Of a stretch of DNA of 64,000 bases, positions 40,780-59,332 are shown one piece after another (position 1 is the stretch's first letter; the number at the start of each line of letters is the position of its first letter). The notes under the pieces are model-generated. The model was not told where the DNA came from, searched no databases, and was given only the letters and a program-made list of their open reading frames with translations. The position numbers were made by a program, and so were the translations under genes. The DNA is from Undibacterium paludis (GTDB lineage Bacteria; Pseudomonadota; Gammaproteobacteria; Burkholderiales; Burkholderiaceae_D). The stretch lies in NCBI RefSeq assembly GCF_022568815.1, contig NZ_JAKZHX010000001.1, positions 682,001-746,000 of the forward strand, in the 5' to 3' direction.

Positions 40780-40913
40780 TGTCTTTTGTTATGCCGTAGC
40801 TCATCAACAGCGTCAACACTGAATCTCACCTGCACAGAAATGACAAAACAGTTTTTGAATGTGTTTCACATTGGGCGATTGACACAATTGTCCAAAACAG
40901 TTCGTTTTTTTAG

Positions 40914-43418
<2,505 letters not shown>

Positions 43419-43450
43419 TGTGCTGCGATAGCGGAGGCATTCAAAGTTAG

Positions 43451-43499
43451 TGCAATCAAGAGTAGATTTTTGCAATCAAAAAGTCGAAGTTATTGCAAT
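43451..43499 (+). repeat. Three phased TGCAATC direct repeats
   Basis: TGCAATCAA at 43451 and 43471, and TGCAATCT at 43493, start 20 and 22 bp apart, roughly two helical turns. They could be an operator or remnants of a larger repeat. Confidence 0.5.
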
Positions 43500-43611
43500 C
43501 TGCCCTTCTTTATATAGAAATTCGTCAAACGTGTATTCCCATCGATACAATGCTTGAAAACTTTTTGTAACAGTGATTAGAGGACGTCTGAAGCGACCAA
43601 TAATAGCGCAA

Positions 43612-43643
43612 AAAAAGGCCAACCTAAATAAGTTGGCCTTTTT
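43612..43643. terminator. Bidirectional terminator after gyrB
   Basis: AAAAAGGCCAAC and GTTGGCCTTTTT form a perfect 12-bp stem with an 8-nt loop. A T tract follows on both strands, so it can end gyrB transcripts from the left and the DUF262 gene transcripts from the right. Confidence 0.85.
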
Positions 43644-43882
43644 GTTTCTGCAACGAAAAATCAATGAGTCCGGTCTATTTCCGAATTTTCATCTCGTGGT
43701 AATAGCATCGAGAAAATCGCCGTCAGACGGTGTGAACTTACACATACATGAAGCACTAACACCGAACCTACGAGCATCAGCGCTGCTACCCAGAACTCGT
43801 ATAACCTCACTTAGGGAACCAAGAAATTAATAAGACTCTTGCGAAGAGAGCGGAACCGACACTAAAAATATTGAGTACTTTA

Positions 43883-45769
43883 CTATGAGTCTGGACCCGC
43901 CCAAATTACACGCGCTATGTCAAACAGTTTTTCTCCTCGTTCAGCTATTGCATCTTCGTTCCACTGCTGACGAGTCATCAGATCGCGATTAAGCTGAAGA
44001 TTTGAATGCTCAAATAAGGCTTGACGCTTCCGTCCATATGCATGATTTTGCAAAGACCGGTTGACCCCATAGTGCACGAGCGTCAAATTGCCAATTCGTG
44101 AAACCGCGCGCTCGCGCTCAATGATGAGTTTAGACCGCACATCTAAGCTGTCGGAGGCATATTGCAGGATACGAGCTTGACTTATATCGGTAGCAGTTGC
44201 ACTGGTTTGATCTGGCAATGGCCAATACGCATGCCAAGTCTGTGGGAGAATATGATCGATATCCAATGTGTCGAAAGCCAGTGGTACACGCTCCTCACTT
44301 TTCTCAGATCGCATCGCAGTCTCCAGCCTATGAAAAATTGCACGCAATTTTGCTGGATCCAAACGTCCTGGATAAACTTCACCTTCCATCCAATGCCGTC
44401 GAAACTCTTCGTCGCGCGGCCATCGTGCGGCAGCACCACTTGATTCTGCCAGAGTCGCTCGAAAAGCAGCTGAGGTCAATTTTCCGGCCTGTAGTTTTTT
44501 CAGTTGCTGCGCAAATACCTTGTTGTAACTCTTTCGCGTAAGTCCACAAATTGCGCGACGCACAAGGTAAGATTCTATACATCGAAAAATCTCGTTCTGT
44601 TCGATGTGCGACAAAGACGATACCGCCACTCTCAAAGCGAGGGCATGTGCTGGAGAAGCGTCCCAAACACTGATACGGCGTCCAAATACACCCACTGGAG
44701 TTTCGCCAGTACCTGTAACCAATGCGCGATATTGCTCAGCATAACTATTAAGCATTTCAAGCTGCGCGTCTGCTGTATGCAACTGCGCAGAATGGTCAAT
44801 GAAGCGGCGATATTCGGCATACAGCCGACCAATATCAATTTCCTCACCAGTTTCTGCTTGAACTGTTGTCTGGACAAACCATTCAAGTCTTGGCCGATTC
44901 AAGCGACCGCGTGACTGTGCCTCAGACCACAATGGCGACTCGAACTGCGACCAAAGTGTTGCATAAAGTTCGTCAGCATTACTCCCTGCCCGCATGAATA
45001 TAAAATTCCGAATCAAATCAGTAGAATGTAACGCTGCCCCGTGTCCGTTGAGCGTCTCAAAAATCACTTGAGCATCATCGTCCTCACCAAGTGATATACA
45101 AACAACGGAAATATCGGTTAACACTGCGGTGGCAAGTGCCATCGTGGAAGTAGCAGGTGGAATATCAGACTGCTCCAGCATCCATTCCGTCATTGCTGCA
45201 CGAAAGTATGCGATCGCCTCCAGCGCTGGCGGGTGTTCAACGCCAATCTTACGAACATTTCCAGTCTGTGTGAAACTAGAGGGGAAGCGATCCCGAAGGA
45301 CATCCATAGAGTTGGCGGTCATAGCTTGAACATATTGATCGCGATCACGGAAAGTCGGCCAGAGCTTAAATGGCTCTACAGTCTTGTCGTCCATCGTTTC
45401 TGGATTCGTATTAACAAGACACGATTCTATAATGGGCAGGAAAGTTACCTGCTCGCATTCCCGCAATGTGTGCATTAGAGCTCTGAGCACGTATTGCAAT
45501 GTAGTGAGCCGTTGCTGGCCATCAATGATGTGATGGCGCTCAACACCAAGCAGCCCCGCTTTTTTTTGCGGTTCTAATACGACGGCACCCATGAAGTGTG
45601 GAACTGCCTTGTCGCCAGTGATGCGGATGTCTGCCTTTTCACGAATATCCTCCCAAAGTCGACCCCATTGATCTTCTTTGTTCCAGACATAGGGACGTTG
45701 ATAAAATGGTACGCGGTATTGACGACGGTCTTGAAATATTTGCTGAACGTTAAAGGTACGTGAATCCAC
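43883..45769 (-). CDS. DUF262/DUF1524 protein, GmrSD-like predicted restriction enzyme
   Basis: A 628-residue protein. The N-terminal DUF262 domain has the sequence YRVPFYQRPYVWNKEDQW and the nucleotide-binding-type motif DGQQRLTTLQ (83-92). The C-terminal DUF1524 domain, around residue 515, carries DIDHILPQTW, an HNH/His-Me nuclease motif. GmrSD, a type IV enzyme, uses DUF262 for NTP-dependent cleavage of modified phage DNA. The GTG start has AAGGAT upstream. The gene is more AT-rich than the core operon and is separated from the helicase by 414 bp, so it is probably an independent defence gene. Confidence 0.85.
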   Translation of the reverse strand: MDSRTFNVQQIFQDRRQYRVPFYQRPYVWNKEDQWGRLWEDIREKADIRITGDKAVPHFMGAVVLEPQKKAGLLGVERHHIIDGQQRLTTLQYVLRALMHTLRECEQVTFLPIIESCLVNTNPETMDDKTVEPFKLWPTFRDRDQYVQAMTANSMDVLRDRFPSSFTQTGNVRKIGVEHPPALEAIAYFRAAMTEWMLEQSDIPPATSTMALATAVLTDISVVCISLGEDDDAQVIFETLNGHGAALHSTDLIRNFIFMRAGSNADELYATLWSQFESPLWSEAQSRGRLNRPRLEWFVQTTVQAETGEEIDIGRLYAEYRRFIDHSAQLHTADAQLEMLNSYAEQYRALVTGTGETPVGVFGRRISVWDASPAHALALRVAVSSLSHIEQNEIFRCIESYLVRRAICGLTRKSYNKVFAQQLKKLQAGKLTSAAFRATLAESSGAAARWPRDEEFRRHWMEGEVYPGRLDPAKLRAIFHRLETAMRSEKSEERVPLAFDTLDIDHILPQTWHAYWPLPDQTSATATDISQARILQYASDSLDVRSKLIIERERAVSRIGNLTLVHYGVNRSLQNHAYGRKRQALFEHSNLQLNRDLMTRQQWNEDAIAERGEKLFDIARVIWAGPDS

Positions 45770-46183
45770 GGTCTTAGATCCTTATTCGATGAAACAATTT
45801 GTCGATTACGAGGGAGACAATTAGGGCACTGTTATCCAAGATAAGCATTCTTGTTAGGTATCTTGACAGAATAGATAAAACTTGTCATGTCGTACCTCAT
45901 TCTGAATTTCATTCGCGATCGACAATCAAACTCTACCGATCTGAATTGATGCTGTGCTCAATGGAGTTTAAGTAGCGTAGATGCGGTAGTGGTACTGTCG
46001 CGGCAACGGGTCAATGTTGAAAGTGCTAAAAGAAATCGGCCACCCATTATTATTAAAGTTAATAACTGTAAAGAACCGAAGATAAGCCAAATCATGATAC
46101 GAAAAGTCAACTAATGGGGAGTCATATGAACCATATGCTCTCCTCTTTTTCATATTTTTCATATTTTTCAACGTGTTTAGTTG
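45770..46183. other. 414-bp gap with a 9-bp tandem repeat
   Basis: AT-rich spacer between the helicase stop and the DUF262 start. A 9-bp unit (TTTTTCATA) is repeated three times at 46146-46172, just beyond the helicase stop. A 67-codon open frame across it (45968-46171) is derived from this repeat and is not supported as a gene. A promoter for the DUF262 gene should be here. Confidence 0.5.
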
Positions 46184-48967
46184 CTAAGTGAGCTCAATCC
46201 ATCCAATCAAATAAGTCTCATACGCCTGTCCTTGTTTGACAATTCCTTTGTGAACAATATCTCGATGCAGCATGGGCTCGAGAATCAATGTAAGCCTCTC
46301 GGAAGCCTGTTTGCGACCTAATTTAGGTACGGACGGTTCCGAATCGAACAAATTATCAACGAACTTCTCCATTGTCGGCGATCGCCTTCCTTTCTCATCC
46401 ACCGCTAGAGCAACGACTATAGATCGCTGTCGATGTTTTTCGTCTGTAGCGACTACATGCCACAAAGACAGTATACCTTCACGGCCATCCGCACTTTTTA
46501 CAGACAAACCAAGATTCTCGGCTTCTGTGGACCTTAGAACATCGAGATATCCAGCAATCAATGGGTGATCGAGGCCAAGCAAGGATAGGTTTTCGTCGGC
46601 CAACGCTCGATCTCGGTCTGACACGAAATTGGCCTCAACCGTGGTGCCATCAACGCCGATAACTTGCCACACGCCATGACCGGCAGAGGCAAACTTCTTA
46701 CCCTCAGATTCCACCGCCGCCTTGACAAAGCTTTCCAATGCACCCATCCCCGCCGAAGTGTCAGATAAAGGCTTATAGTCGTCGATGTTGAAGCCGCCGA
46801 GGTCTTGGAATAATTCGAAGACCACAGCTTGCGCTTGACTCGCATTGGTCATCGCCGCCTCCAACTCGACGCGCGTGCGTTTTAGCTCAGGGTCTCCCAA
46901 CGCCTCGGCGTAGAGTTTCTCGTAGCTCAGCCGCTCGGAGAGTTGGCCTAAAATTTGAGAACGCAGGTCTTCTGCGACCTCGCCGTGTTCGTCGACTTTG
47001 CCAAGCGTCTTGGCGATCTCAGTGAGCTTCTCGTCGAGCAGCAAGAAAATCTTGCCTTCGATCGTGTCGGACAACACCAGGTTGTAGACCTGGGCCGTGT
47101 GCTTCTGGCCATAGCGGTGGATGCGTCCGATCCGCTGCTCCATATCCATCGGATTCCACGGCAGATCGAAGTTGAACAGCACGCGAGCATGCTGCATGTT
47201 GAGCCCCTCGCGCCCCGCCGCAGTGCAAATCATCACGCGCGGGCCATCTGCCTGCTTGAACCGCTTCTCTGCAGCGGCCTTGCTGCCATGGTCGCCGCCT
47301 TTGAGGACAACCACACCTTGCCCTGGATACTCGCGCTCGATCATCTGGCCTAGCATCTCGACGCTGCCCAGGTAAGTCGCGAAGATCACCACGCGCTCGC
47401 CCGCGTCCTGACGCCAGAGGGCTCCCAACGCCATCAGCAGTTTTTGGACTTTGGTCTCGGTCTCCCCGGGGAATCTGCGCAGCAAATCCTTGATGCGCAG
47501 GCGCTCCTCAGGCAAGGCGAGAGCAACAGACGCCACCGCCGAATCCTCGGCGGTGGCCAGCGCGACCTCATCGGACACGTTGGAAGCCATGTCCATGGCC
47601 TCCTCGTCGAGCTTCTTCAATATCTTGCGCTGGATGTCACCAAGGGCGCGATCGACCTCGATGTCGGCCAGGCGATCATCCCCAAGCCCGAGCTCCGAGC
47701 GGATCAGGTCTTTGGCCTCACGCAAGGATTCGTCGCGGCGGTCGATGTCGCGGTTTTCGTCATGCATCAGGGATTCGTGGACCGTCAACGCTATGAGGCG
47801 GCGGCGCAGCGTGCGCGCGACCGCAGCGAAGCTGGACGCGGCGATCTTCTGGAAGATCGTCATCACAAAGCCCAGAGCCATCCCCTTGTTTCCCTGACGT
47901 TTGGCCAGCGCGAAGCCGTCTTGCAGGTATTCGTTGAGCCCAGAGTAGAACAGCCGCTCTCGGTCATTCATCAAAAACGACTCGGTGTGGACCCAGCGCC
48001 TGGCAAACAAAGCGGTTCCATCCGGCTTGCACGCATCTGCCTTAGTTCGGCGCACCACGACCGAGTTGAGCCGGTGGCGCTCCTGCACCATCTCTTCGGG
48101 AGAATTGAACAAGGTCGAATCCAGTAACTGGATCAGCATCCAAAAACGGAAATGATCACCCTGGTGGGGAGTCGCGGACAGCAAAAGCAAATCTCGGCTG
48201 TGGTCACGAAGAGATTCGGCCAGCTTGTAATTCTCGGTCTTCTTGACCTTACCCCCCGACTTGAAGGCGGTCAGATGGTGAGCCTCGTCGAATACTACCA
48301 AGTCCCATTTCGGCGCTTCTTCAAGTTTCCTCACCCGCGCTTTGCGCTTCAGAGTGTCGATGCTGGCGATGAGGCGATCATGCTTGGCGAATGCATTGGA
48401 TTTCCGGTCCGTCACGTCGCCCTCGGAGCCGAACACCTCGAAGTTGAGGTTAAACACCTCATTGAGCTCGCGGTGCCAGTTGTTGACCAGGCCGGCCGGA
48501 ACCACCATCAAGGCGCGTTTCAGCTCGCCACGGCTGGCCAGCTCGCGCAGGATCAGCGCGGTCTCGATGGTTTTGCCTAGGCCCACCTCGTCGGCCACCA
48601 AGAAGCGGCGCGGCGCCGTGGTCGTCACGCGATGGGTCAAAACGACTTGATGGGGAAGCAGATCGATCTTGGCCGATGTGAGGGAGGCGGCACTCTCCAT
48701 CAACGGCAGGACATGGGCCTGCCATGCGAGCCACGCCTTGCGAGCCCTTTCGCGGCCTTGGCCGACGTTGACGACCACGCGCTGAGTCCTGCCAAAAGCA
48801 GGCAGCAACGCATCAACCGCGACCTGGCGCTCGCCCCCCTGAAAGAACACGCGGACATAGCCATCGGACACCGCCGATACGACGACGCCCTCGCCGAACT
48901 GAACGTGCCTTACCCGTTGGCCGGGATGGATGATCTGCGCTGGAGCGCCCTCGACGGCCAACGCCAT
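46184..48967 (-). CDS. SNF2/RapA-type helicase of the defence operon
   Basis: A 927-residue superfamily 2 ATPase. A small SH3/Tudor-like segment (~15-50: GQRVRHVQFGEGVVV) precedes helicase domain 1, with Walker A ADEVGLGKT (125-133) and the DEAH box (227-230). Helicase domain 2 has REGLNMQHARVLFNFDLPWN and the motif VI region QRIGRIHRYGQ. The closest functional analogues in known defence systems are BREX BrxHII and DISARM DrmD, which are SNF2-like. It probably translocates on double-stranded DNA to aid self/non-self discrimination or phage arrest. It is the last gene of the operon, overlapping the preceding stop by one base. Confidence 0.9.
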   Translation of the reverse strand: MALAVEGAPAQIIHPGQRVRHVQFGEGVVVSAVSDGYVRVFFQGGERQVAVDALLPAFGRTQRVVVNVGQGRERARKAWLAWQAHVLPLMESAASLTSAKIDLLPHQVVLTHRVTTTAPRRFLVADEVGLGKTIETALILRELASRGELKRALMVVPAGLVNNWHRELNEVFNLNFEVFGSEGDVTDRKSNAFAKHDRLIASIDTLKRKARVRKLEEAPKWDLVVFDEAHHLTAFKSGGKVKKTENYKLAESLRDHSRDLLLLSATPHQGDHFRFWMLIQLLDSTLFNSPEEMVQERHRLNSVVVRRTKADACKPDGTALFARRWVHTESFLMNDRERLFYSGLNEYLQDGFALAKRQGNKGMALGFVMTIFQKIAASSFAAVARTLRRRLIALTVHESLMHDENRDIDRRDESLREAKDLIRSELGLGDDRLADIEVDRALGDIQRKILKKLDEEAMDMASNVSDEVALATAEDSAVASVALALPEERLRIKDLLRRFPGETETKVQKLLMALGALWRQDAGERVVIFATYLGSVEMLGQMIEREYPGQGVVVLKGGDHGSKAAAEKRFKQADGPRVMICTAAGREGLNMQHARVLFNFDLPWNPMDMEQRIGRIHRYGQKHTAQVYNLVLSDTIEGKIFLLLDEKLTEIAKTLGKVDEHGEVAEDLRSQILGQLSERLSYEKLYAEALGDPELKRTRVELEAAMTNASQAQAVVFELFQDLGGFNIDDYKPLSDTSAGMGALESFVKAAVESEGKKFASAGHGVWQVIGVDGTTVEANFVSDRDRALADENLSLLGLDHPLIAGYLDVLRSTEAENLGLSVKSADGREGILSLWHVVATDEKHRQRSIVVALAVDEKGRRSPTMEKFVDNLFDSEPSVPKLGRKQASERLTLILEPMLHRDIVHKGIVKQGQAYETYLIGWIELT

Positions 48968-49488
48968 CAGGAAATCCGTTGAAGGTAATAACCCGATAAA
49001 CGCGGCGGCATATTGTCCTTCATCCTGATTTCCTGGCTATTGGGCTCGGAGCCATTCCACAGGCAACGTCCAAGCGGAATTTCCTTTGAGCCTTGCGCGC
49101 TTCTGCAATGCCAATAGGCTGCCTGCTCGGCCTGTCGATATGTGAACCGGCGCGAATCGGCAAACCAAAAAATCAGAGCCGCCTCGCGACCGCCCGACGC
49201 CACCGATTTCTGGAACGACAAGATCACCGGATAGATCGACTGCTCAAGCCAATCTGTGGCTTTGTCGGGGTGCAATGCATCCAAGGCTCCATCGAGACCA
49301 GCCACAACCAGCGCCCGATCCCGAATCAACACATCGTCAACGCCGACCCACCCGGCCGCCTTGAATCTCAGGAGCTGTCGAAGGCTGATGGGATTCTTGG
49401 GGCCACACAAGGCCGCGAGCTTCGCTGCGTCCCAAAGGATCGAGTGCCCCTGGCGCCACCAAACATCGATTTCTATCGGACTGCTCAT
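48967..49488 (-). CDS. Unrecognised 173-residue protein of the defence operon
   Basis: It begins MSSPIEIDVWWRQGHSILWD and has an alpha/beta pattern with the strands YPVILSFQ and AALIFWFADS. There is no P-loop, no nuclease or methylase motif, no zinc ligands and no membrane segment. I do not recognise the family. It is translationally coupled on both sides (TAATG with the methylase stop, TGATG with the helicase start) and has a strong GGGAGG ribosome site. It is therefore probably a stoichiometric subunit. The position, though not the sequence, recalls small accessory proteins such as BrxB or BrxF in BREX. Confidence 0.75.
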   Translation of the reverse strand: MSSPIEIDVWWRQGHSILWDAAKLAALCGPKNPISLRQLLRFKAAGWVGVDDVLIRDRALVVAGLDGALDALHPDKATDWLEQSIYPVILSFQKSVASGGREAALIFWFADSRRFTYRQAEQAAYWHCRSAQGSKEIPLGRCLWNGSEPNSQEIRMKDNMPPRLSGYYLQRIS

Positions 49489-52400
49489 TACGCCTCCCCA
49501 AACATATCAAATTGCCGCTTGCCGTCTTCCTCTTTGCCCTTGTGATCGGCAAGCCACCTAGAAAACAACTGCTTGGCAAGATGCGACGCCCTGCGCATCT
49601 CTGCCAAGCCACCGCGAGATCCAAGCCATTCCAACAAATCCGCCACTGCCGGGTGCGGAATGAAGTTTGGGTTGCTCAGGGTTTCGTCGACGCGGATTCC
49701 GCTGTCGGGATAGCACGCGCCAATCAAGAAAAGGGCCTGATCAAGGTCGCCCGACATCCCCTTTCGCGGCTTGCCCCGCCATGCCTGCGCAAACTCCAAG
49801 GGGGAGACGAGGTGGAACGATTTCTTCTCCTCGACGCACCATCCAAGCTTTTCAAAAACATCAAGCTCGGTGCCAGTGCCTCGTAGGAACTTCATCATCT
49901 GGTCGCGAGGAACGACGGCAATCTGATCGAAGATGCGCAAGAACTGGCGCGTATAGGGCTCCGCCAACACTGGCGGCACGATGCCACCTTCGCTATCGTC
50001 GATGAGCTGGCGAATGCCAGACAAAGCCTCAGGCAAAGTAAATTCGCGACCACGCTCGACATAGACTTTGCCGTAGTGCTTGGAAAAATATTCCAACGCC
50101 TTGCCGCGCTTGATCACTTCCAAATCAGCCTTCGGCAATCCGTCATGCTGATGCTGTTCGAGCAAATCCTTGAGCTGCTGGATATCGTCGGAAATCTTGC
50201 GACGCAGCTTCGCCCAACTAATCATTTCAGGCTCATCAACGCGCTTGCGGCAGACATGGATGATGTCGTATTCTACCTTCATCGAGCCAAACTGCGAATC
50301 TCCCTTGGACTCATCCCCACGGATTGGATAGGTGGCCTCCAAGTAGAAACCCGCTGAGAACAGGCTCTCCAGAACCTGAACCCATGGGCCGTCTTCACTA
50401 TGGTGGAAAGTGAATGCAAGCAGCCCGCCCGGCTTGATGATTCGATGCGCCTCTCGCCAGCACTCGGTCAAGATTCGCTGGTAGAAAGCCTTGGCGTCTT
50501 TTCCTTGGCGATATGGATTCTCCACCGCTTCCAAAGTCTTAGGCGTAAACGGATTCCCAAATATTTCCGGGTAGCGAGATCTTAGGACAGGCGCAAGCCA
50601 GACATAGAAAAAATCAGACAGCTCTGAATATTGGACCAGCTCGCTGAATGGCGGGTCCGTAATTACCATGTCGATACTTTCCGCACCAATGTGATGAAGG
50701 TCAGTTGATGAGCCACATGTGAGCACGACGTTATCCAGCACTGGATCGCCAACCTTGATCTTGATGCTTTTCCCTTGCTTGAGCTCTTTGGCAAGGTCTT
50801 TCGATTTGCGTTGAAGCTCCGTTTTAGTCACGCGTTCCCATGGATTAGCGCGCCATTCTAGCGATTCGATAAGGCCTTCGACACACGACTGCCAATTTCC
50901 ACGTCCGAGCCTGGCGTCAAAATTGTTCTCGACCGGCTTTGATTTCAACGAGTAGTTGTTTCCTGAAAAATGTGGCACGAGCTTGTCGTAACCTTCATCC
51001 CAAAAACACAATAAATTCTGATTGCGTATGTATTGCTGGAATGCACCGAGCAGAGCTTCCTTTGCTTCCCATCTACCCACCGGGCTCTCGACTATCGCCT
51101 TCAAAAGTTGCGCCAATACGAGCAATTGCCGCGTATTGAACATTTTCCAGTAATGTGTGTAGCCGTGATCTGGAATGCCCCATTTATGGGTTTTCCATCC
51201 GACCGACAATTCATCGGTGGGCCAGTAGCCAGCGAGGTCAGCGTCCTTGCGACCAGCCCACTCCAATTCACTCGCGACTATGGCGGACACATCGTTTGCC
51301 GGCACAAATGAGCGGCCGGAATATGGTTCGCCAGCGGCATCGCACTGTGGGCAATGCACGTGATATGCAAAGGGCGACATTGGCCCGGTCTTATGGCTTG
51401 CACGCACAGCATCAAGGACATCCGATCCCCGGCCACATGTCGGGGCTTGACATGAGAACGAAGATTTGCGCGGTTGCATACCTAACGCCGTCTGTTTCAT
51501 CTCAGCCGTGCCAACCACAGTCGAGATCGACCTTCCGGTGACAGGGTGAATCACGTTCGCTGGAAGAACCTCGCCACGAATTTCAATGAAACCTATAGTC
51601 TTGGCTCGTTCGCGATACCAACGAACATTGGCCTCAGCCGAATCTGTCGCACTCCCGCCCAATGGGGCTCCGCTTGCATCAACTGGCCCAGAACCCTTAA
51701 GCCAAAGCGGGTCAACCATGAGGCTCAGCAAAATCTTTTTATTTTCGCTCTTGCCAAGCACTGCGGATTCGCCCGTAAGAACGGCCATTTGATCTACGCA
51801 TGCGCTTCCGCATTTCGGACACAAATATTGCCCGGTCTCGTCCATGACTGCATATGGCTTCTCACCTCCCGCCACCACATACGGCTCACTTGGAGCCATA
51901 CGCGCGGGCCGTTGCTCGACATCAAAGATGGTGCCGCACGACCCGCAAGGTCTATCCTTCCACGCCTTAACCGTGAGCGTCTTCTTCGCGAATACGGGAT
52001 TGCCCATCAACGGCGTTCGATGCCCACAGCCATCGGCCTGGCACGGCCCATGTTTTGCCCAAAAGGTGTAAATCAGCTCCGGCCCCTCATAGCCATACTG
52101 CGCCCTATCCGCCAATGGAATGGCGGTCGGATCAAAGCCCTCTGGCTGATCCAGTCCCGTGAGTTTCGAGAACCAGCGACCTTTGTGTCCTTTGGGGCAG
52201 GAATGCGCGTAATACGGTCGCAAAGAAGATCCAACCTTGTGGTCGATATCGGCCAGAAGAGCTTGGACCTCCTCCTTGGTTGTCTGCGCAAGCTCGCTCT
52301 TGACTACGAACCACGACATCGGATTGAGATCGTTGCCAACCACTTGCATTCCAAGTCTCGCGGCCTCTACCAACGTGGTGCCTCCGCCCATGAAAATGTC

Positions 52401-52778
52401 CGCCACCTTCAATTTCGAGAAATTAGGATTGCCCTGGTGATTACCATAAAAAGATTTCCATACCGCCGCGCCGACCTGTCGCTCCGATGTCGGAGCCTTT
52501 GATGCGGCCGCGATGAGCATCGCCCGGAACACGCTGGAAGATCTGCGCGCCCAATATTTGCTGACCTGGTAGATCGGCTTGTCTGCGTTGCCCTCAATGA
52601 CCGCAACCTCATTGATCGGCAAAATCGGGAAGTCGACCTCGAGGCACGACTTCGGCCGATTTGGATTGGAGAAGTCGAGCCCCTCCAGCATCTGCAGCTT
52701 GCCCGCTTCCAACAACGCCGATACCGCGTCGAGGACTTGCTCTGCCTTGGGCTTGCTTGATTTTTTTTGAGTCGCCAT
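49488..52778 (-). CDS. DUF1156-type DNA methyltransferase
   Basis: A 1096-residue protein. Residues ~40-90 match DUF1156 (CLEVDFPILPINE, YWARRSSSVFRAML). SAM-binding motif I is FMGGGTTLVEAARLG near 129-143, with acidic ND (149-150). The catalytic motif DPPF lies near residue 705 (MVITDPPFSELVQY), the signature of N6-adenine or N4-cytosine amino-methylases. Between them lie several Cys-pair zinc ribbons (CPKGHKGRW, CGSCG, CPKCGSACVD, CPQCDAAG). It probably marks host DNA as self. ATG at 52778 has GAGG six bases upstream, better than the TTG at 52790. Confidence 0.9.
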   Translation of the reverse strand: MATQKKSSKPKAEQVLDAVSALLEAGKLQMLEGLDFSNPNRPKSCLEVDFPILPINEVAVIEGNADKPIYQVSKYWARRSSSVFRAMLIAAASKAPTSERQVGAAVWKSFYGNHQGNPNFSKLKVADIFMGGGTTLVEAARLGMQVVGNDLNPMSWFVVKSELAQTTKEEVQALLADIDHKVGSSLRPYYAHSCPKGHKGRWFSKLTGLDQPEGFDPTAIPLADRAQYGYEGPELIYTFWAKHGPCQADGCGHRTPLMGNPVFAKKTLTVKAWKDRPCGSCGTIFDVEQRPARMAPSEPYVVAGGEKPYAVMDETGQYLCPKCGSACVDQMAVLTGESAVLGKSENKKILLSLMVDPLWLKGSGPVDASGAPLGGSATDSAEANVRWYRERAKTIGFIEIRGEVLPANVIHPVTGRSISTVVGTAEMKQTALGMQPRKSSFSCQAPTCGRGSDVLDAVRASHKTGPMSPFAYHVHCPQCDAAGEPYSGRSFVPANDVSAIVASELEWAGRKDADLAGYWPTDELSVGWKTHKWGIPDHGYTHYWKMFNTRQLLVLAQLLKAIVESPVGRWEAKEALLGAFQQYIRNQNLLCFWDEGYDKLVPHFSGNNYSLKSKPVENNFDARLGRGNWQSCVEGLIESLEWRANPWERVTKTELQRKSKDLAKELKQGKSIKIKVGDPVLDNVVLTCGSSTDLHHIGAESIDMVITDPPFSELVQYSELSDFFYVWLAPVLRSRYPEIFGNPFTPKTLEAVENPYRQGKDAKAFYQRILTECWREAHRIIKPGGLLAFTFHHSEDGPWVQVLESLFSAGFYLEATYPIRGDESKGDSQFGSMKVEYDIIHVCRKRVDEPEMISWAKLRRKISDDIQQLKDLLEQHQHDGLPKADLEVIKRGKALEYFSKHYGKVYVERGREFTLPEALSGIRQLIDDSEGGIVPPVLAEPYTRQFLRIFDQIAVVPRDQMMKFLRGTGTELDVFEKLGWCVEEKKSFHLVSPLEFAQAWRGKPRKGMSGDLDQALFLIGACYPDSGIRVDETLSNPNFIPHPAVADLLEWLGSRGGLAEMRRASHLAKQLFSRWLADHKGKEEDGKRQFDMFGEA

Positions 52779-52786
52779 GCGAGTCC

Positions 52787-53782
52787 TCAATTCTGCTTGA
52801 CTATCTCAATGAAGGGGGACGCCACTTCAAGCAACGAAATCCCTCCATGAGCCAAATTTTTCCTGCCTCCCGCGACGCTCCATGAACGTCGCCCCAAGAC
52901 AAAACGATAAGCACCACGCGTCGTCGTCATCGCAATATCCAACGGTGGAGCCCAAGCCGAGCCTACCTGATCCTGCGATGAAGCGAACCGTTCCGCTCCG
53001 TATGTCGAGGCCAAATAATCCTTCTGAACCAAGTCATGGACATCACCGAATTGACCCGAAGCGGCATAGCCGTGATCGGAAGTGATCACCAGCGTTCGTC
53101 CTGTTGCTAGACGGTCGATGAAAGACCAGAACTCATCGCCGCACAGCACTGCGCCTACTGCCTGGGCCAACGGCGCCAACCCTTTGCCTGGTGCCGCGTA
53201 GTCGTGCAGCAACGAATCTGGCCACTCGTGCCAAACGAAAAGAGACGGGCTGTTGGGTAACGTGTTAGCACACTCCTGCCAAGGCTGATCAAAGAGAGCT
53301 GTCGCAGCGCCTGCGAGTTTTAAAGAATTCACCGCGCCAGCCGTCAAAGCTGAGCGTTGAGGCAGCCCCAATAACTTTGCAAAACTTGTTGTGTCGCTAG
53401 GCAGGGCCGAGGCACAAGCTTTCGCTTGTTTGATCTTGTAGCCACGACTTTCAGCCCCCGCCAATAGCCACGGCACCTCCCGCAGCGATAGCGCATCAAG
53501 GACCAACACGGCTTTGCCGCCCTGTACCTGATTCCAAAATTCTTCAATCGCTTTGGCATTGCTTGGAGCAGCAGACTCGAAGTCGCGCCATAGCTCCCAC
53601 GCAGAGCTGGAAAGGACCAGGTCGAGACCTTCGACCAACTTGTCGCGCCGAACCAATTCGGAAGCTGGATCGCCGACGATGGGGACAGACAATCGTTGCC
53701 ATAGCTCATCGAATATCAGTCGCCATGCTATTTGCGACGGCTCGATCAAAAGCCGATCAAGCAATGTGGAATCGACACTCAT
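52787..53782 (-). CDS. Short PglZ-fold protein
   Basis: A 331-residue protein with the alkaline-phosphatase-superfamily motifs of PglZ: LVLDALSLRE with metal-ligand Asp96, VITSDHGYA (235-238 SDHG) and AHGGISLLEVASPFIE (312-320). PglZ is the hallmark protein of BREX and Pgl systems, where it is 700-1000 residues long; this one is less than half that and holds only the catalytic fold with a short N-terminal domain. The start overlaps the DUF499 gene stop (TAATG) with AAGGAGG upstream. The reaction of PglZ is unproven even in BREX; a nuclease or phosphodiesterase role is likely. Confidence 0.88.
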   Translation of the reverse strand: MSVDSTLLDRLLIEPSQIAWRLIFDELWQRLSVPIVGDPASELVRRDKLVEGLDLVLSSSAWELWRDFESAAPSNAKAIEEFWNQVQGGKAVLVLDALSLREVPWLLAGAESRGYKIKQAKACASALPSDTTSFAKLLGLPQRSALTAGAVNSLKLAGAATALFDQPWQECANTLPNSPSLFVWHEWPDSLLHDYAAPGKGLAPLAQAVGAVLCGDEFWSFIDRLATGRTLVITSDHGYAASGQFGDVHDLVQKDYLASTYGAERFASSQDQVGSAWAPPLDIAMTTTRGAYRFVLGRRSWSVAGGRKNLAHGGISLLEVASPFIEIVKQN

Positions 53783-56499
53783 TAGGATTCCTCCTTCTCG
53801 GCATCGAGCCCGTATGAAAGGCCATCAGGCAATGTCCTGATGATCTGTTGAAGTTGCGCGCCAGTGAGCTTTTCGATGCGCAGGGACACATTCCTTATGG
53901 TCGTGCCTGGTTGGATTCGCCATGAATCCGCGACACGGCTCAGGAGATTCAAGCCCGATGTCGGATCGGCGCTCAACTTTGTGGTCATGATTGCCGGCGC
54001 CGGCCACGCTCCACCACCGTCTCCTGGCGCGGGTGGCTGACCGAACGGATTTATTGGCGGTTGCCCCGTTTGGCCTGGCAGGCCTGGAATGCCCGGAAGC
54101 GGTTGCGTCCCGCTTGGAGCTTGTTCACCAGCACCAGGCTGCCCAGAACTCTGCGGTGGCGTGCCAGGCAATGTCAACAGCGTGTCCTCCAACTGTTTTC
54201 CAGCAACGTCAAAGTCGCGCTTCATGCGCCTCAAGGCGACATCGGCATCTTCGCCGGGCGCTCGTTGCAGCGACCGCAAGCCACGCACATTGATGGCAAC
54301 CCGCCCATCGGCGCATACCGCGAGAACGGCATCCTTGGCCGCCGCTTCGCCTAGCCACGGTATGCATTCCTTGCCTCCGCGAGGCTCGCGCAATTCCGCC
54401 AGCAGTTTCGCAAGCGACAAGCTGCGCTGGGCGAACGAAACTACCATGTCGTCGAACTCCTCCGCGACAAAGAGGTTTTGCCTGATCTTGTCCTGGATCG
54501 CGACGGGAATCTTTTCTGCTTTGGAGCCGTGCGGTTCGGCATCAAAGACGCACTTCGGGGCATCCTCGCTATTCCACGTCCGCAAGATTGCAAAACGATC
54601 AAAGCGATCCGCAACTTTGGTCTTGATCTGATTGTTGAACTCGGTCGCCAAGGCACGATATGCCGCTTCCGTTTTCGCCCAGTCCTTGGCCAAAAACGCA
54701 GCGCGAGCCAGGATCATCAACTCTCGGTCTTGGTAAATGGTGCCTTCCTCGCCTTTTCGTGGAAGAAGGAACCTTGGCGTATTTCGACCCGAGACCAAGA
54801 ATTTCTTCACCCATTGGCCCAATGTCGCATCTAAAGTGTCAGGGCTAATGGGCAACACGATGATCGGGATCATGCGCGTGTCCCATGATTGCGGCCGATC
54901 GCGCTCATCCAATTCTTCCCATGGCGAATTGCTCCATTCGCGTTTGAGCACAATGGTCCGATACATGCCCGACAACTGAGCGTCGCCGCCGATGACATGG
55001 CGAATCTCCGTAGCGAGATAGTCCACGTCCTCGCCGTTTTGGAAAAGTTTGTCGTTGCGGGCGTGCGCCAACAAACGGGTGCGAGCATTCTCTTCAAGCT
55101 TGAATACCAACCGCGAACCAAGCTTGTGGATGTTGTAGCTGTTGTTCTCGATCGTTCCCAATTCCGCTTGGAAAGCGTTGTCGTCGACCTTTGAGCCGCG
55201 AGTGACATCAATTTGCAGAGTTTCCGGCTCGGCTCCAACCCGATGATTGTCAAGCGAGAGCGAGCGCAACCAAAGCGCGCTGACGATTTCGCGAAGGTGG
55301 GGAACCTGAGAGAGATCGCCACCCAAGGCCTCCTGCACAGCGGTCAAATTGCGCAGGGCTTTGTCGCGAAGCTGCTTGTGATGCTCAATGCCGACGGTGT
55401 CGATGAGCGAGGCGGCGCTGCCACGGTCATCGCCTGACAGCTCGAAATCAGCGGATGTAATGACAGGAACCTTGTCGCCCGATGCCTTGAAAAGTTCGAC
55501 CAAGATGCGAACCAGGTCCCGAGTGCCCTGCGCCTGCACAGCGAAAATGACCTCATCGTCAAGAAGCTGCAAAAGCTCAGGCGAGTATGGCCATGATTCG
55601 GAAAATCTGGCTTTGTGGCGTTCAAGTTCCGACCCTGGCTTGCTGGACAACCTCATGAACTCCGAAACGTGGGCCGCGATCAACGGCTCGATCTGCCCCG
55701 CAGGAATGTTGATCCGATTCTCGAAAATACGGTAGAGCAAAAGCTTGCGGCGATCGTGCTGCGCCTGCTCGCCTTTAAAGTCGACTCGAACAGGATTGAC
55801 GCGGAAAAGCTGCTGGGCCGCATTGGAGTTACCCTCTCGGACGGATACGACCAGCGACAAAAGCTCAGGATTGTTCTCAGCGATTTCAGACAATAGCTGA
55901 ATGAAATTGAAGGCCCAGACTTGTCGAGGCTCCCCGTTGGCATCGCTCAGGCCATCGAACCAGGTCTGAAACTCATCGAGCAAAAGCGCCGTAGGCTGTT
56001 CTTTGAACATCTCCATCAAGATGTCTTTTCCTGGAACCTCCGTTTTTCGTCCCTCCCACTTCCCCCTAGCGAATTCGCCCCTGGGATGACGCGCGAAGAG
56101 GATGTCCCAGAGGTAGGCGAATCGATGTTCGTGCAAAGGCTCCGCGATCACATGCAATTTCGATCGCAAGGACATGCCAGCCAATTCAGGTTGACCAACC
56201 CTGTCCGACCATGCCTTGAGCCAAGTCTCGCCGGCATCAGGATCGCTAAGCATGTGGCAAACCGCCGCCATCAAGTGGGATTTACCTTGCCCACGGTTGC
56301 CGACCATGACCACCGCTTTGTTCGATCCTGGCGCCACCGCTTTGATCGATTTAATCAGGTCGATCGATGGATACGTGATCGCCAAGAAGTCCTTGGCTTC
56401 CATGTCCAAGGCCCCCGTCTTCGCATCGTTATTGAAGTCGATGGTTGTTCCACGGAGCCTCGTTCCGCGAAACTCGTCGCGCAATTGCAATCCAAGCAT
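53782..56499 (-). CDS. DUF499-type AAA ATPase (BrxC/PglY analogue)
   Basis: A 905-residue ATPase. Walker A is GNRGQGKSHL (67-76) and Walker B is LLLDEF (172-177). The middle is a long helical region, and a Pro/Gly-rich linker (PGIPGLPGQTGQPPINPFGQ) precedes a short C-terminal domain (RNVSLRIEKLTGAQLQQIIR). This is the layout of the DUF499 proteins found with DUF1156 methylases in phage-resistance loci, and it plays the part of BrxC/PglY in BREX. The ATG follows AAGGGA. It is the first structural gene of the operon, 42 bp after the WYL regulator. Confidence 0.88.
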   Translation of the reverse strand: MLGLQLRDEFRGTRLRGTTIDFNNDAKTGALDMEAKDFLAITYPSIDLIKSIKAVAPGSNKAVVMVGNRGQGKSHLMAAVCHMLSDPDAGETWLKAWSDRVGQPELAGMSLRSKLHVIAEPLHEHRFAYLWDILFARHPRGEFARGKWEGRKTEVPGKDILMEMFKEQPTALLLDEFQTWFDGLSDANGEPRQVWAFNFIQLLSEIAENNPELLSLVVSVREGNSNAAQQLFRVNPVRVDFKGEQAQHDRRKLLLYRIFENRINIPAGQIEPLIAAHVSEFMRLSSKPGSELERHKARFSESWPYSPELLQLLDDEVIFAVQAQGTRDLVRILVELFKASGDKVPVITSADFELSGDDRGSAASLIDTVGIEHHKQLRDKALRNLTAVQEALGGDLSQVPHLREIVSALWLRSLSLDNHRVGAEPETLQIDVTRGSKVDDNAFQAELGTIENNSYNIHKLGSRLVFKLEENARTRLLAHARNDKLFQNGEDVDYLATEIRHVIGGDAQLSGMYRTIVLKREWSNSPWEELDERDRPQSWDTRMIPIIVLPISPDTLDATLGQWVKKFLVSGRNTPRFLLPRKGEEGTIYQDRELMILARAAFLAKDWAKTEAAYRALATEFNNQIKTKVADRFDRFAILRTWNSEDAPKCVFDAEPHGSKAEKIPVAIQDKIRQNLFVAEEFDDMVVSFAQRSLSLAKLLAELREPRGGKECIPWLGEAAAKDAVLAVCADGRVAINVRGLRSLQRAPGEDADVALRRMKRDFDVAGKQLEDTLLTLPGTPPQSSGQPGAGEQAPSGTQPLPGIPGLPGQTGQPPINPFGQPPAPGDGGGAWPAPAIMTTKLSADPTSGLNLLSRVADSWRIQPGTTIRNVSLRIEKLTGAQLQQIIRTLPDGLSYGLDAEKEES

Positions 56500-56541
56500 G
56501 TTATTCCCTTCGGTATTCTTCTTTGTGTCTATGTTCTGTAT

Positions 56542-57423
56542 TCAGTTCTCGGCCGCAGCCCCAAGCGCCAACACGGCGCTCTCCACCCCGTAGAGGGTGG
56601 GAGTGTTCCGAAGCCAAAGGTGATGCGATGCCGGATCAAGGCAGTGGTTTGGGGTCGCGTCGATCGACCAACGCCGCAGGACGTAGCCCGCCAAAGCCGC
56701 TCTCGTCTTCATCCGCAGCACGCCATCGCTCATGGCATAGTCCGCCTCCACCGCCTTGGGCCACTTGACGCCGGGATGCGGGACCAGCTCCATATCCACG
56801 ATCCGCGACCATTGCTCGTCCGCCCCGAGAAGCTCCCGCTCCTCGGCCTCGCCATCGATCTCTTGCGCCTTGACGATTCTGGTCAGGACGAAGTCGCCGA
56901 ACCGCTGCCGCTCCCGGTCGAACGCCCGAACGTGCCAACGCAAACCGTTGTCGGCCAACGCAACCGGCACGATCTCGCGCCGCTTCTGCCCTGACGACAT
57001 CGACAGATAGCTGATCTTGACCGGGCGCTTGGCACACATAGCCCTGGTGATGACGCCTAGGGTCGCCATGTCCGGCTGCACCAATTGGCCAGGCCCCTCG
57101 CATGGCGTGGCCAGCTTGAGGCCGAGCTCCAACCCATCGCCGAACCCCAGCAACAGCCATGCGAGCACGCGCTCGCAATGGAACTTGAAGATAGGGTCGA
57201 ATGACGCCGTGGGCCGGTAGCGCCTGCCCGCAAGGTCGTAATCGAGATTTCCCGGCGCCATCTCGCGGTAAATGCGCAAGTCGCGCGACGCTGCCGCCGG
57301 TTTAATCCCAAACCGAGTCTCGATGTCGCCGCGACTGAGCTTGCCTGTGAAAAAAGCGCGCAACTCTAGAAAGGCCAACCTCTCCCGTAGCGTTTGCGAC
57401 AACAATTCTTCCCTAACTTTCAA
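56542..57423 (-). CDS. WYL-domain regulator, BrxR/CapW-like
   Basis: About 293 residues. The N-terminal winged helix (RLAFLELRAFFTGKLSRGDIETRFGIKPAAASRDLRIYREM) is followed by APGNLDYDLAGRRYRP, then a WYL domain (VKISYLSMSSGQKRREIVPV, RWHVRAFDRERQRFGDFVLTRI) and a WCX-like end. This is the three-domain plan of BrxR/CapW repressors, which silence BREX and CBASS loci until induced. The start is best placed at TTG 57423, preceded by GGGAG at six bases; the frame is open further but that extension has no ribosome site. It heads the operon and is divergent from the HipA-like gene. Confidence 0.9.
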   Translation of the reverse strand: MKVREELLSQTLRERLAFLELRAFFTGKLSRGDIETRFGIKPAAASRDLRIYREMAPGNLDYDLAGRRYRPTASFDPIFKFHCERVLAWLLLGFGDGLELGLKLATPCEGPGQLVQPDMATLGVITRAMCAKRPVKISYLSMSSGQKRREIVPVALADNGLRWHVRAFDRERQRFGDFVLTRIVKAQEIDGEAEERELLGADEQWSRIVDMELVPHPGVKWPKAVEADYAMSDGVLRMKTRAALAGYVLRRWSIDATPNHCLDPASHHLWLRNTPTLYGVESAVLALGAAAEN

Positions 57424-57590
57424 TGCATGCTCCCGGACTCCTGCCCCTCTCGCGTATACGGAACGAACGCGCCAAAAACGCAAAGAATAACATGCGAATC
57501 ATTTTGATAGGGTATGCTATGTGCTATTAACGATAACGCGCAGCCAAAAATGAGCTCGACGACGCTAAAAATGCCAGAGGGAGGTGGGAG
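57424..57590. promoter_or_regulatory. Divergent control region of the defence island
   Basis: This 167-bp spacer separates the leftward WYL-led operon from the rightward kinase gene, so both promoters and the likely WYL-repressor operator should be here. For the rightward side, TTGATA (57504-57509) and TATTAA (57525-57530) are 15 bp apart, which is short. The kinase ribosome site is GGGAGGTGGGAG directly before the ATG. No clean inverted repeat was found. Confidence 0.4.
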
Positions 57591-58397
57591 ATGAGCGTGC
57601 CAATCCTCGATGCCTCCGCCTGGCGCGAATTCAGAGGGCAACCCGGCAATCCGGGCGTCAATTCGACCCACCTCGCGAAGATCGCAGACGAATCAGGCAA
57701 GGAGCGGATTTGTTATGTGAAGCTTGCGCCCGACCCGGACATCCCAGCCCTCCTTTGCGAAGCGTTAGGATGGGTGCTCGCCGGGTATGCGGGACTAAGC
57801 CGAGCTGAGTTTGTCGCCATCGTCTTGGTGGATGTGGCAACCCTACGTAAAAGCCAGCCCCTTCCACTTGAGTTCAATCACTTTGCCGCTCCGTTCTGCC
57901 CGGCTTGGTGTAGCCAGGCCGTGCCTGGGTCGGCAGTGCGCGACCACGCCAAACGAATGGATTTCATAGCCTCTCGCAAAGCTTTCCTGCGCTCGAAAGA
58001 CTCTCGGAAATTCGCCGCATTCGACCATTGGAGCGACCTCAGGGACCGCAACTTCGGCAATGTCATCCGCTCAGACAAGGGCTACACCACGATCGATCAC
58101 GAGACCTTGCTTTACGATACGCTATGGGTCGGCAAGACCAAGGGCTTTAACAAGCAGTGTCTCATGGAGCAGGCTCAACGCGCCCTCGACAGCAAGCAGT
58201 TCAAGCGCTTCCAGGTAGACATGGCCAAGGCTGCGACTGGGCATGCGGGTGCATTCTTGAACGCGCAATCCGATCTCGACGCCTTGATCGACCTGCTACT
58301 TCCAAACCAAACAGCCGCAAAAACAGGCATCGTCGCTACGTTGAATGCGCGATCGCAGCCAGGCTGGCTCGCTAACCAATTGGGAGTCATCGCATGA
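57591..58397 (+). CDS. HipA-like kinase
   Basis: A 268-residue protein resembling the small HipA_2-type kinases. Candidate kinase residues are all present: Lys44 in ICYVKLAPD, a Glu57-bearing helix (ALLCEALGWVLAG), the catalytic loop SDLRDRNFGN with Asp152 and metal-ligand Asn157, and the IDHE motif with Asp169. The classical HipA phosphorylates a tRNA synthetase to stop growth; the target here is unknown. The next gene overlaps by 4 bp, so the two form a couple, as with HipA_2 and DUF3037 genes. It has an exceptionally strong ribosome site. Confidence 0.7.
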   Translation: MSVPILDASAWREFRGQPGNPGVNSTHLAKIADESGKERICYVKLAPDPDIPALLCEALGWVLAGYAGLSRAEFVAIVLVDVATLRKSQPLPLEFNHFAAPFCPAWCSQAVPGSAVRDHAKRMDFIASRKAFLRSKDSRKFAAFDHWSDLRDRNFGNVIRSDKGYTTIDHETLLYDTLWVGKTKGFNKQCLMEQAQRALDSKQFKRFQVDMAKAATGHAGAFLNAQSDLDALIDLLLPNQTAAKTGIVATLNARSQPGWLANQLGVIA

Positions 58398-59317
58398 GCG
58401 AATCTAAACCAATCAGTATCAAGATAGACCATGGGAGCCTGAGCCAAGCAGCCAAAGCCACGCCCAAACCAGCCTTTGTGGGCGCATGGGCAACAATCGA
58501 ACTGCAGCCTGACCTATTTGCCCCGCAACGCTTCACTGTGGGTGTGGCTGTGCAATCCGCTGACGAGCGTCTGCATTTCAAGTTGCTGGACGATTTCAAG
58601 AAGTTCGAATGCGTGTACCCGGACGTGTTCCCGCAAAAGTCGGCGCGCGAATTAATGGCATATGCCGCAGAGGCTCTGCAACAAGCCGTCAAAGCCAAGC
58701 TGCCTCTTGACGCTGTCCGCTTTGAATCGCATTGCCTGTCAATCTCGCCGCCCTTGTTCACATCGGGAGAAGACAGGGAGGACAAGGTCGAGCGCCTATT
58801 TGCCGAAGTCGTCACCATGGCCCCCTCTCCCAAGAAGCGAGGAGGCGACTTCGAAACGATCGACACACCAAACGCTCGGCGTTTGGTAAACCGTTACTTA
58901 AAAGAAATCGCAGGCATCGATTTCGAGCGCTTTGTTCAAGAGGCGCAAACAGGAATTCTTATAGACGGCGATGATGGTTCCAGGCATTTCTTGGACTTGA
59001 ACTTGCTGACGTCGACCTCATGCGGCAGCGTTACCTCAGCTGTGTACAAAACATCGACTACTGTGGAGATAAATCTCCTCAAGGCAAGCCTGGATTTGAA
59101 AACCTGCTGCCGTAAGCGCCGCCTTGATTCCATGGGCTTGTTTCTATTGCTGCCTGATCCGCAAGCAATGGAGCAAAAAGAATACAAGCGAATCGAGGAG
59201 GTCATAGGCGACCATGAATGGAAACTTCAGCAGGATGGGTTTCGAGTAGTTAGCATGCCAGAGCCAGCGAGACTTGCATCTGAAATTTACGAATGGGTAA
59301 GGCCGGCGCTGACTTGA
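58394..59317 (+). CDS. Partner of the HipA-like kinase, possibly DUF3037-like
   Basis: A 307-residue protein. The N-terminal part (GAWATIELQPDLFAPQRFTVGVAVQSADERL) resembles the P-x(5)-E-x-x-N-V-G-V strand motif of DUF3037 proteins, which are usually encoded next to HipA_2 kinases. The C-terminal half (~190-307) is a separate alpha/beta domain that I do not recognise. The ATG overlaps the kinase stop, so translation is coupled. It could be the antitoxin, regulator or substrate of the kinase. The DUF3037 link is weak by eye. Confidence 0.6.
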   Translation: MSESKPISIKIDHGSLSQAAKATPKPAFVGAWATIELQPDLFAPQRFTVGVAVQSADERLHFKLLDDFKKFECVYPDVFPQKSARELMAYAAEALQQAVKAKLPLDAVRFESHCLSISPPLFTSGEDREDKVERLFAEVVTMAPSPKKRGGDFETIDTPNARRLVNRYLKEIAGIDFERFVQEAQTGILIDGDDGSRHFLDLNLLTSTSCGSVTSAVYKTSTTVEINLLKASLDLKTCCRKRRLDSMGLFLLLPDPQAMEQKEYKRIEEVIGDHEWKLQQDGFRVVSMPEPARLASEIYEWVRPALT

Positions 59318-59332
59318 AACATTTAAATTAAA

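Follow-up and report, generated by a model that had tools for sequence, protein, structure and literature searches.

What kind of defence system is encoded by five closely packed genes, one of which specifies a PglZ protein of just 331 residues? The question is posed by a 64,000-nucleotide stretch of the Undibacterium paludis genome (contig NZ_JAKZHX010000001.1, positions 682,001 to 746,000; the whole stretch is referred to as the window), where an operon on the minus strand runs from 56499 to 46184 and encodes, in this order, an ATPase, PglZ, a DNA methylase, a 173-residue protein and an SNF2 helicase. A previous sequence-only reading had described it as a defence operon akin to the bacteriophage exclusion (BREX) systems, with a miniature PglZ and a layout corresponding to neither full BREX nor DISARM. 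This description holds: the five-gene set, the profile identities and the order kept among relatives point to a BREX-like operon, the predicted fold bears out the standalone PglZ, and profile tests with PADLOC, Pfam and NCBIfam place the layout outside both systems. The further suggestion that the PglZ-plus-173-residue variant might be new has to be given up, as the gene set matches the Type-3 BREX-Related (BR) systems described by Rakesh and Krishnan (Nucleic Acids Research, January 2026; PMC12839542), with the 173-residue protein as a candidate for their iSTAND component. The system type is thus already in print, and sequence comparison indicates that the window carries a member of it: a real, conserved and under-described defence operon, the function of which we infer.

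Conservation of the five-gene operon

Ninety-nine records were compared: the window, seven plasmid loci (L002-L008), 80 loci from a genome collection, eight from IMG/VR and three from the same family. All records apart from the window were gathered by PglZ similarity, with the small protein playing no part in the gathering; those from the genome collection, the top 80 among 195 PglZ relatives, lean towards the window's own PglZ. All five genes lie together, on one strand and in the same order, in 87 of the 99 records, and the co-occurrence expected from the earlier reading is not lost. The 12 incomplete records comprise nine that run into the end of a contig or locus, two haloarchaeal loci (L006 and L007) and one with fragmented frames (L022). 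Two of the plasmid records, L003 and L008, are nearly identical copies. Exactly 1 or 4 bp are common to the ATPase and PglZ genes in 81 of 98 records, and a single record of the 98 (L076) has an insertion at their junction; this pattern suggests coupled synthesis and assembly of the two proteins. In the window, neighbouring core genes share 1 to 4 bp at each of their junctions. When compared with a copy from the same genus (G270), dN/dS (the ratio of nonsynonymous to synonymous substitution rates) is 0.05-0.12 for each of the five core genes, the WYL regulator gene and an adjacent HipA-like pair; all of these frames are open and under purifying selection.

The haloarchaeal plasmid loci keep the ATPase-PglZ-methylase part and have no recognised small protein or SNF2 helicase; downstream in L006 lie a PD-(D/E)XK protein and a UvrD-type helicase. 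The eight IMG/VR loci (L092-L099) that carry the operon may be prophages, satellites or misclassified plasmids.

PglZ is predicted to be a bare catalytic domain

The pglZ gene (52787-53782, minus strand) was recognised by a homologue profile and by the predicted fold of its product. Nine proteins of the window were scanned against PADLOC, Pfam and NCBIfam, and the matches of PglZ in these libraries are weak (PADLOC PglZ, 4e-6; NCBIfam BREX_PglZ_3, 8e-5). The latter score of 21, set against the model's own cut-off of 250 bits, indicates kinship as opposed to membership of the named family, and of the 642 model positions 516-641 alone are matched; nothing is fused to the 331-residue protein. A profile built from 58 PglZ homologues finds PorX (E 9e-4) and the PglZ-domain protein 9nv3_C (3e-3) in the Protein Data Bank (PDB), and the structural model, with a predicted local distance difference test score (pLDDT) of 90.5, matches the fold of PorX (E 1.9e-11) and of an Acinetobacter BREX PglZ (9zn5_B, 2.3e-6). 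Residues D96, T131, D236, H237 and H312 do not vary across the 58 aligned sequences, nor across a 7-sequence set, and from the pattern of the PglZ/PorX family we consider them candidate metal-site residues.

PglZ is rare in the family of the window's host, found in 4 of 294 genomes including its own. On plasmids, 42 of 72,556 records have a match at E 1e-3, 28 of the 42 being from Klebsiella, while no match was found among 50,697 phage records at E 0.01.

ATPase, helicase and WYL regulator

The first gene of the operon (53782-56499, minus strand) encodes a DUF499-like AAA+ ATPase of 905 residues, a putative BrxC-like scaffold. Its DUF499 match in Pfam (22.5 bits, E 2.9e-5) falls just under the 23-bit cut-off, a DUF6079 match of 19.9 bits is also below it, and the BrxC/DUF6079 similarity spans just ~30-40 residues around the Walker A motif, GNRGQGKS at residue 67. 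This motif is present in 87/87 ATPase homologues of at least 800 residues with closed ends. An ATPase homologue occurs in 98 of the 99 records and is annotated as DUF499 in five plasmid records.

At the other end of the operon, the 927-residue SNF2/RapA-type helicase (46184-48967, minus strand) has an SNF2 domain, a Helicase_C domain and a weak RapA_C match in Pfam, and no nuclease match there. Its best PADLOC profile is BrxHI/BrxHII, with DrmD also matched; positions 83-836 of the 933 in the BrxH profile are covered, and its best PDB relatives are RapA. It is described here as BrxHII-like.

A WYL-domain regulator of the BrxR/CapW kind is encoded 42 bp upstream of the ATPase gene (56542-57483, minus strand; 313 residues from the longest start). 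Its PDB relatives include 7qfz (E 4e-71), CapW (9c5g, 4e-38) and BrxR (7t8k, 6e-24). The gene calls and coordinates of the sequence-only reading are kept for the five core genes, and its regulator start at 57423 falls within a frame whose longest start is 57483; the true start is uncertain. Among the 89 records with at least 1 kb in the corresponding place, 13, including the window, have a WYL homologue upstream of the ATPase on the same strand.

The methylase insert as probable determinant of specificity

The DUF1156/HmaB-type methylase (49488-52790, minus strand; 1100 residues) starts at a TTG codon, with an ATG four codons further on also possible. It matches HmaB (1e-34, PADLOC), N6_N4_Mtase and DUF1156_antiphage profiles, the last with a score of 92 against a model cut-off of 1000 bits, again kinship as opposed to membership of the named family. 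Motif I (FMGGGTT) lies at residue 133 and DPPF at residue 712, with a putative target-recognition insert between them (about residues 137-736; 50581-52380, minus strand). Two four-cysteine sets are present in the insert, C250/C255/C282/C285 and C324/C327/C447/C452, with 100% conservation of every cysteine except C452, which is at 93% (86-93 sequences). The methylated base is probably adenine: PADLOC-DB labels HmaB an adenine methylase, while the PADLOC paper predicted 5-methylcytosine for it (PMC8565338).

The insert is the most divergent part of the cassette shared with G270. In 200-bp steps along the comparison with G270, identity is mostly 0.83-0.99, with a drop across 50581-52380 (0.645-0.785); the helicase gene is also down to about 0.75 at its 3' end. 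Synonymous divergence (dS) from G270 is 1.3 for the methylase, 0.09 for PglZ and 0.15-0.44 for the other genes, so parts of the cassette differ in history. Several close pairs of records show the same focus on the insert. For L084 and L085, insert identity is 0.56, with all other columns at 0.92 or above; the corresponding values are 0.67 and at least 0.94 for L059/L094, and 0.79 and at least 0.90 for the window and L100. In L056/L057 the insert is at 0.58, the N-terminal part of the methylase at 0.80 and the remainder at 0.93 or above, while in L097/L099 the insert is at 0.74. Across 1103 comparable pairs with an ATPase identity of at least 0.70, the insert lies at least 0.15 below the methylase C-terminus in 551; these pairs are not independent. 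Because several close pairs differ mainly in the insert, the methylase insert probably sets the target for the whole system. Both exchange by recombination and fast divergence in place could account for the variation.

The pair-identity table used the longest helicase of each record; for L056, L057 and L061 this picks out an additional, divergent helicase gene, from which the helicase identities of 0.25-0.26 to L055 derive. In these loci, from sphingomonad-type genomes, the second SNF2 helicase (~1050 residues) is found at about 2.4-5.6 kb of the locus, upstream of the ATPase.

The 173-residue protein as a candidate iSTAND

Between the methylase and the helicase lies the gene for the small alpha/beta protein (48967-49488, minus strand). 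The 173-residue product has no match in PADLOC, Pfam or NCBIfam, and a PDB sequence search found no homologue. A scan of 52 of its homologues returned four families in all, three from Pfam and one from PADLOC, none of them in more than one member, with best E-values of 0.045 (Pfam) and 0.0011 (PADLOC); the PADLOC match is to a membrane-protein model. A homologue of the small protein occurs between methylase and helicase wherever both are present, and was found in 89 of the 99 records. The Walker A motif is present in 0 of 89 homologues. The structural model has a pLDDT of 91.2 and, judged by eye, places three short strands between strand 104-108 and the last strand, 163-169, the same strand arrangement as described for iSTAND (PMC12839542). 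As position, by-eye topology and the lack of Walker A all fit, the protein is likely, though unproven, to be iSTAND, and may act as a BrxB/BrxF-like sensor or bridge.

A restriction-modification-like mechanism and its rivals

We favour the view, at a probability of about 0.72, that the operon is a Type-3 BR system working in a restriction-modification-like manner. The target-recognition insert of the methylase would define a motif at which the enzyme marks bases, probably adenines, and foreign DNA carrying this motif in unmarked form would be detected by way of the same enzyme. On such DNA the ATPase would assemble, bridged in BrxB-like fashion by the 173-residue protein, and license the standalone PglZ, which would then nick the DNA. 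The RapA-like helicase is proposed to move along or remodel the DNA, and the WYL protein to repress the operon until infection. Our own observations contribute the anatomy, the gene order, the predicted PglZ fold, the invariant candidate active-site residues, purifying selection and the insert-focused variation in several close pairs. Four elements are taken from experiments of others on Type I BREX: the role of the methyltransferase as specificity factor, the metal-dependent nuclease activity of PglZ, which also binds BrxB (PMC12205998), the assembly of BrxC, BrxB and PglZ into a core complex (PMC13326643) and repression by BrxR (PMC9122601). All that is specific to the present operon, phage defence included, we infer.

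A number of points weigh against this mechanism. PglZ has no Pfam match, and PF08665 finds none in the window's own genome at E 0.001. For the 173-residue protein, a Foldseek search with the model gave no significant match: RecA ranks first at E 0.12, and the 50 rows shown contain many RecA/RadA/KaiC P-loop folds at low probability. Profile comparison of this protein gave E-values of 0.1 for BrxF, 0.2 for BrxB and 0.57 for BrxB-like sequences, no better than the 0.056 of an unrelated PglZ control; the comparison sets are shallow (6, 2 and 4 sequences, respectively), making this weak evidence either way. BrxB structures exist in the PDB, yet no match tied the 173-residue protein to them. If it is nonetheless the BrxB counterpart, its docking onto PglZ must differ from that in Type I BREX, where PglZ residues 1-98 bind BrxB (PMC13326643): residues 1-85 of our PglZ model are almost wholly helical, whereas the N-terminal domain of PglZ is described as an alpha/beta sandwich (PMC12839542). 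The licensing step is itself uncertain, since activation of Type I PglZ is reported to have no direct link with the modification state of the DNA (PMC12839542), and binding of BrxB leaves PglZ nuclease activity unchanged (PMC12205998). Finally, there are close pairs in which the insert has not diverged, with identities of 0.97 (L080/L085), 0.94 (L057/L061) and 0.96 (L004/L077).

The best-surviving rival retains Type-3 BR descent and alters the chemistry: PglZ would be a nucleotide or second-messenger phosphodiesterase, and a small molecule would be depleted or read while phage DNA stays uncut. The fold matches lend themselves to this, as PorX ranks ahead of BREX PglZ (one of the best-matching PorX chains was solved with the dinucleotide pGpG) and is followed, after BREX PglZ, by phosphonoacetate hydrolase and ecto-nucleotide pyrophosphatases; nucleotide depletion is indeed proposed as an added role in PMC12839542 itself. 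However, Type I PglZ cleaves plasmid and phage DNA, with the nuclease activity contributing to defence (PMC12205998), and the insert divergence between several close relatives is what would be expected of DNA-sequence-specific restriction. We consider this rival unlikely.

Less probable still is that the operon represents an Hma (helicase-methylase-ATPase) system with two acquired accessory genes. The HmaA profile matches the helicase at 3.5e-91 and, as mentioned, HmaB matches the methylase, but the ATPase has no HmaC match. Moreover, the HmaA match ends at position 691 of 1176, and the C-terminal part, in which PMC12839542 places the nuclease of Type-1 BR, is absent. The presence of PglZ in 99/99 records follows from the construction of the sample; the small protein, which was not used for gathering, nevertheless accompanies it in 89. 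A third rival, in which the locus has diverged from Type-3 BREX or DISARM and survives as a relic that plays no active part in defence, is highly improbable: the helicase matches BrxH and DrmD and PglZ weakly matches a BREX-3 model, but no BrxA, BrxF, DrmB or DrmC is among the listed matches of the nine proteins, limited in PADLOC to the best 25 for three of them, the ATPase similarity to BrxC/DUF6079 is confined to the surroundings of Walker A, and the open frames and low dN/dS described above do not fit a relic.

How BREX stops phages is still unsettled, and full BREX needs large multi-domain proteins. A five-gene relative with a catalytic-domain-only PglZ could isolate the core reaction. 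Natural pairs differing mainly in the methylase insert, such as L084 and L085, are a ready-made test of the methylase as sole target setter for both protection and attack.

Cargo genes occupy specific junctions

Inserted genes, defined by a gap of at least 600 bp between core genes, were found in 28 of the 87 complete records; the window's own operon is without an insert. The raw count was 30 of 87, from which L037 and L054 were dropped because their methylase is split and its remaining part fills the gap. An undamaged methylase is present in 26 of the 28, while L027 and L038 are doubtful. The methylase of L027 corresponds to the first half of the protein, and that of L038 to roughly the C-terminal 100 residues, the gap containing an Eco57I-type methylase; either case could reflect real loss, replacement or a faulty assembly. 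In L076, the methylase and helicase frames are broken beside its inserted genes. When all records with both neighbours are counted, inserts lie between PglZ and methylase in 25 of 96 (L037 and L054 counted in), between methylase and small protein in 8 of 89, and between small protein and helicase in 9 of 88.

From gaps of more than 400 bp in 31 loci, 75 same-strand open reading frames (ORFs) of at least 90 residues were collected, of which 30 were scanned against Pfam and ten of these also against PADLOC; L021 and L064 fall outside the 87 complete records. SIR2 with HerA was identified by scanning in L042 and by similarity in L003, L008 and L087, with record annotation naming SIR2 in L003 and HerA in L008. 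HEC-01A/B (AAA_21 with DUF4276) was found by scanning in L087 and by similarity in L067, L071, L072 and L083. Single loci carry IetAS (L078), a CAP12/Pycsar-type TIR protein (PADLOC PDC-S35; L020), a PIN protein (L086), PDC-M30A with DUF5131 (L031), DUF1828 (L014), a lipase (L092) and a restriction-type methylase (L038). Schlafen AlbA_2 occurs in L045 and L069 (and by similarity in L076), a YhcG-type PD-(D/E)XK nuclease in L018 (by similarity in L064), a metallo-beta-lactamase-fold protein in L020 (by similarity in L021 and L030), and AAA_21 or AAA_15 ATPases in L019 and L025. Weak matches were obtained to HEPN in L021 and HSDR_N in L027. Seven scanned ORFs fell below every curated cut-off (L023, L025 second gene, L026, L040, L064, L072 and L083), as did the first gene of L020. 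Nucleases are thus among the inserts, but many are NADases, proteases or unknowns.

On Klebsiella plasmids, SIR2-HerA lies between PglZ and methylase (6110-8987 in L003; 9602-12479 in L008). The spacing of the PglZ and small-protein matches is identical in four compared pairs among the plasmid rows listed.

According to PMC12839542, Type-3 BR lacks auxiliary or backup nucleases or keeps them in limited instances. Its main text does not contain the terms SIR2, TIR, NADase or DUF4276, and the inserts may be found in its Supplementary Data S4. Nested defence as such is known, one example being a Salmonella type I BREX island with PARIS inside it (PMC11341690). The published view of this subtype, in which PglZ has few or no backups, would be altered by the inserted NADase, TIR, protease and Schlafen modules. 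A possible, if doubtful, extension is that Type-3 BR acts as a modular chassis, with a fixed, translationally coupled ATPase-PglZ motor, swappable methylase target domains and three junctions at which complete abortive modules (SIR2-HerA, HEC-01, IetAS, TIR, Schlafen) dock and come into action once the core has been blocked. In that case the bare PglZ would be the smallest working BREX effector, and its docking would dispense with the N-terminal domain by which Type I PglZ binds BrxB.

Cassette boundary and neighbouring genes

A single block, 46181-59323 (no strand), is common to the window and a 39.8-kb contiguous stretch of G270, at 88.4% nucleotide identity. One end of this exchangeable cassette is at the stop codon of the helicase gene, and the other lies shortly beyond the second gene of a divergent HipA-like pair (57591-59317). 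Since the shared block includes the pair, pair and operon travel together in the single comparison made. The putative HipA-like kinase (57591-58397, plus strand) shares 56 of 217 aligned positions with an annotated HipA family kinase (E 4e-13, a single comparison) and has no Pfam or PDB-sequence match. Its partner (58394-59317, plus strand; 307 residues) has no function assigned and no Pfam match, and homologues of it are annotated beside HipA family kinases. Their dN/dS values are 0.09 and 0.11. Neither gene has a homologue in the other 97 records (single-sequence search, E 1e-3), and the pair is therefore not a general part of Type-3 BR. With the cassette edges searched separately, no repeats were found at the helicase edge, and one direct and two inverted pairs lie beyond the other.

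Outside the shared block, 414 bp downstream of the operon, lies a GmrSD type IV restriction enzyme (43883-45769, minus strand), identified by PADLOC and Pfam profiles. Neither this downstream gene nor the HipA-like pair upstream features in the sequence-only reading of the operon, and the divergence of the methylase insert becomes visible only with a second genome. Among the 75 records with at least 600 bp after the helicase, five (the window, L050, L093, L094 and L097) have a same-strand GmrSD homologue starting within 600 bp of it. The start of a GmrSD gene is seen at the contig end in L052, and a weaker one upstream on the other strand in L089. BrxU, of the GmrSD family, gives complementary protection in a type I BREX island (PMC8565348).

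A variable region just past gyrB appears to harbour the defence genes. The gyrB gene (40923-43425) flanks this region, and when 40 relatives were compared with 38000-43880 of the window, none of the matches listed extended past about 43505. In G270, the gyrB match and the operon are at different places. Past the cassette, a lower-GC stretch carries DUF2026 and Hypoth_Ymh genes (60066-61489).

Comparison with known systems

Several known systems share parts of this layout. DISARM was rejected: the helicase matches DrmD and, more weakly, DrmA (among the best 25 of its 53 matches), and neither DrmB nor DrmC is among the families listed. Plain Hma was rejected with HmaA and HmaB matched and HmaC not (E up to 0.01). 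Hma, or Type-1 BR, has in common with the present operon a core of helicase, methylase and ATPase; it differs in that PglZ here stands in place of the helicase-linked nuclease. Type-3 BREX likewise has a homologous ATPase, a methylase with a nested target insert, a BrxHII helicase and a PglZ domain (PMC12839542). By contrast, PglZ here appears as a bare catalytic domain of 331 residues against a 642-position model, the ATPase is DUF499-like and not a full-length DUF6079 match, and no BrxA or recognisable BrxF is among the listed matches, on which grounds Type-3 BREX was rejected.

The Type I BREX islands with PARIS or BrxU (PMC11341690; PMC8565348) resemble the surveyed loci in having defence modules inside or beside the core, a BrxR-type regulator and GmrSD nearby. 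Their core gene set is another one, and here inserts use three junctions, with the ATPase-PglZ junction all but spared.

The closest correspondence is to Type-3 BR, described with a DUF499 ATPase, an N6 methylase with a target-recognition domain (TRD) insert, in a subset with two four-cysteine zinc fingers, and a nuclease-free helicase; among 569 taxa the standalone PglZ is near-universal and an iSTAND gene is present in 466 (82%) (PMC12839542). PMC13326643 repeats this description, and among the papers listed in searches of the open-access literature none was recognised as experimental work on Type-3 BR itself. The operon of the window has the ATPase, a standalone PglZ with an intact candidate metal site, a DUF1156 methylase with TRD insert and two four-cysteine sets, a small-protein gene within the core locus and a nuclease-free BrxHII/RapA-like helicase. 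None of the defining features examined sets it apart, the small protein being a candidate iSTAND. It does carry a HipA-like pair in its cassette ('hipa' has 0 occurrences in the main text of PMC12839542), and the survey differs in finding inserts in about a third of complete records (28/87), as compared with the few or no backup nucleases of the published account. To that account, the present analysis adds evidence for methylase-borne specificity, junction-specific cargo and a cassette boundary.

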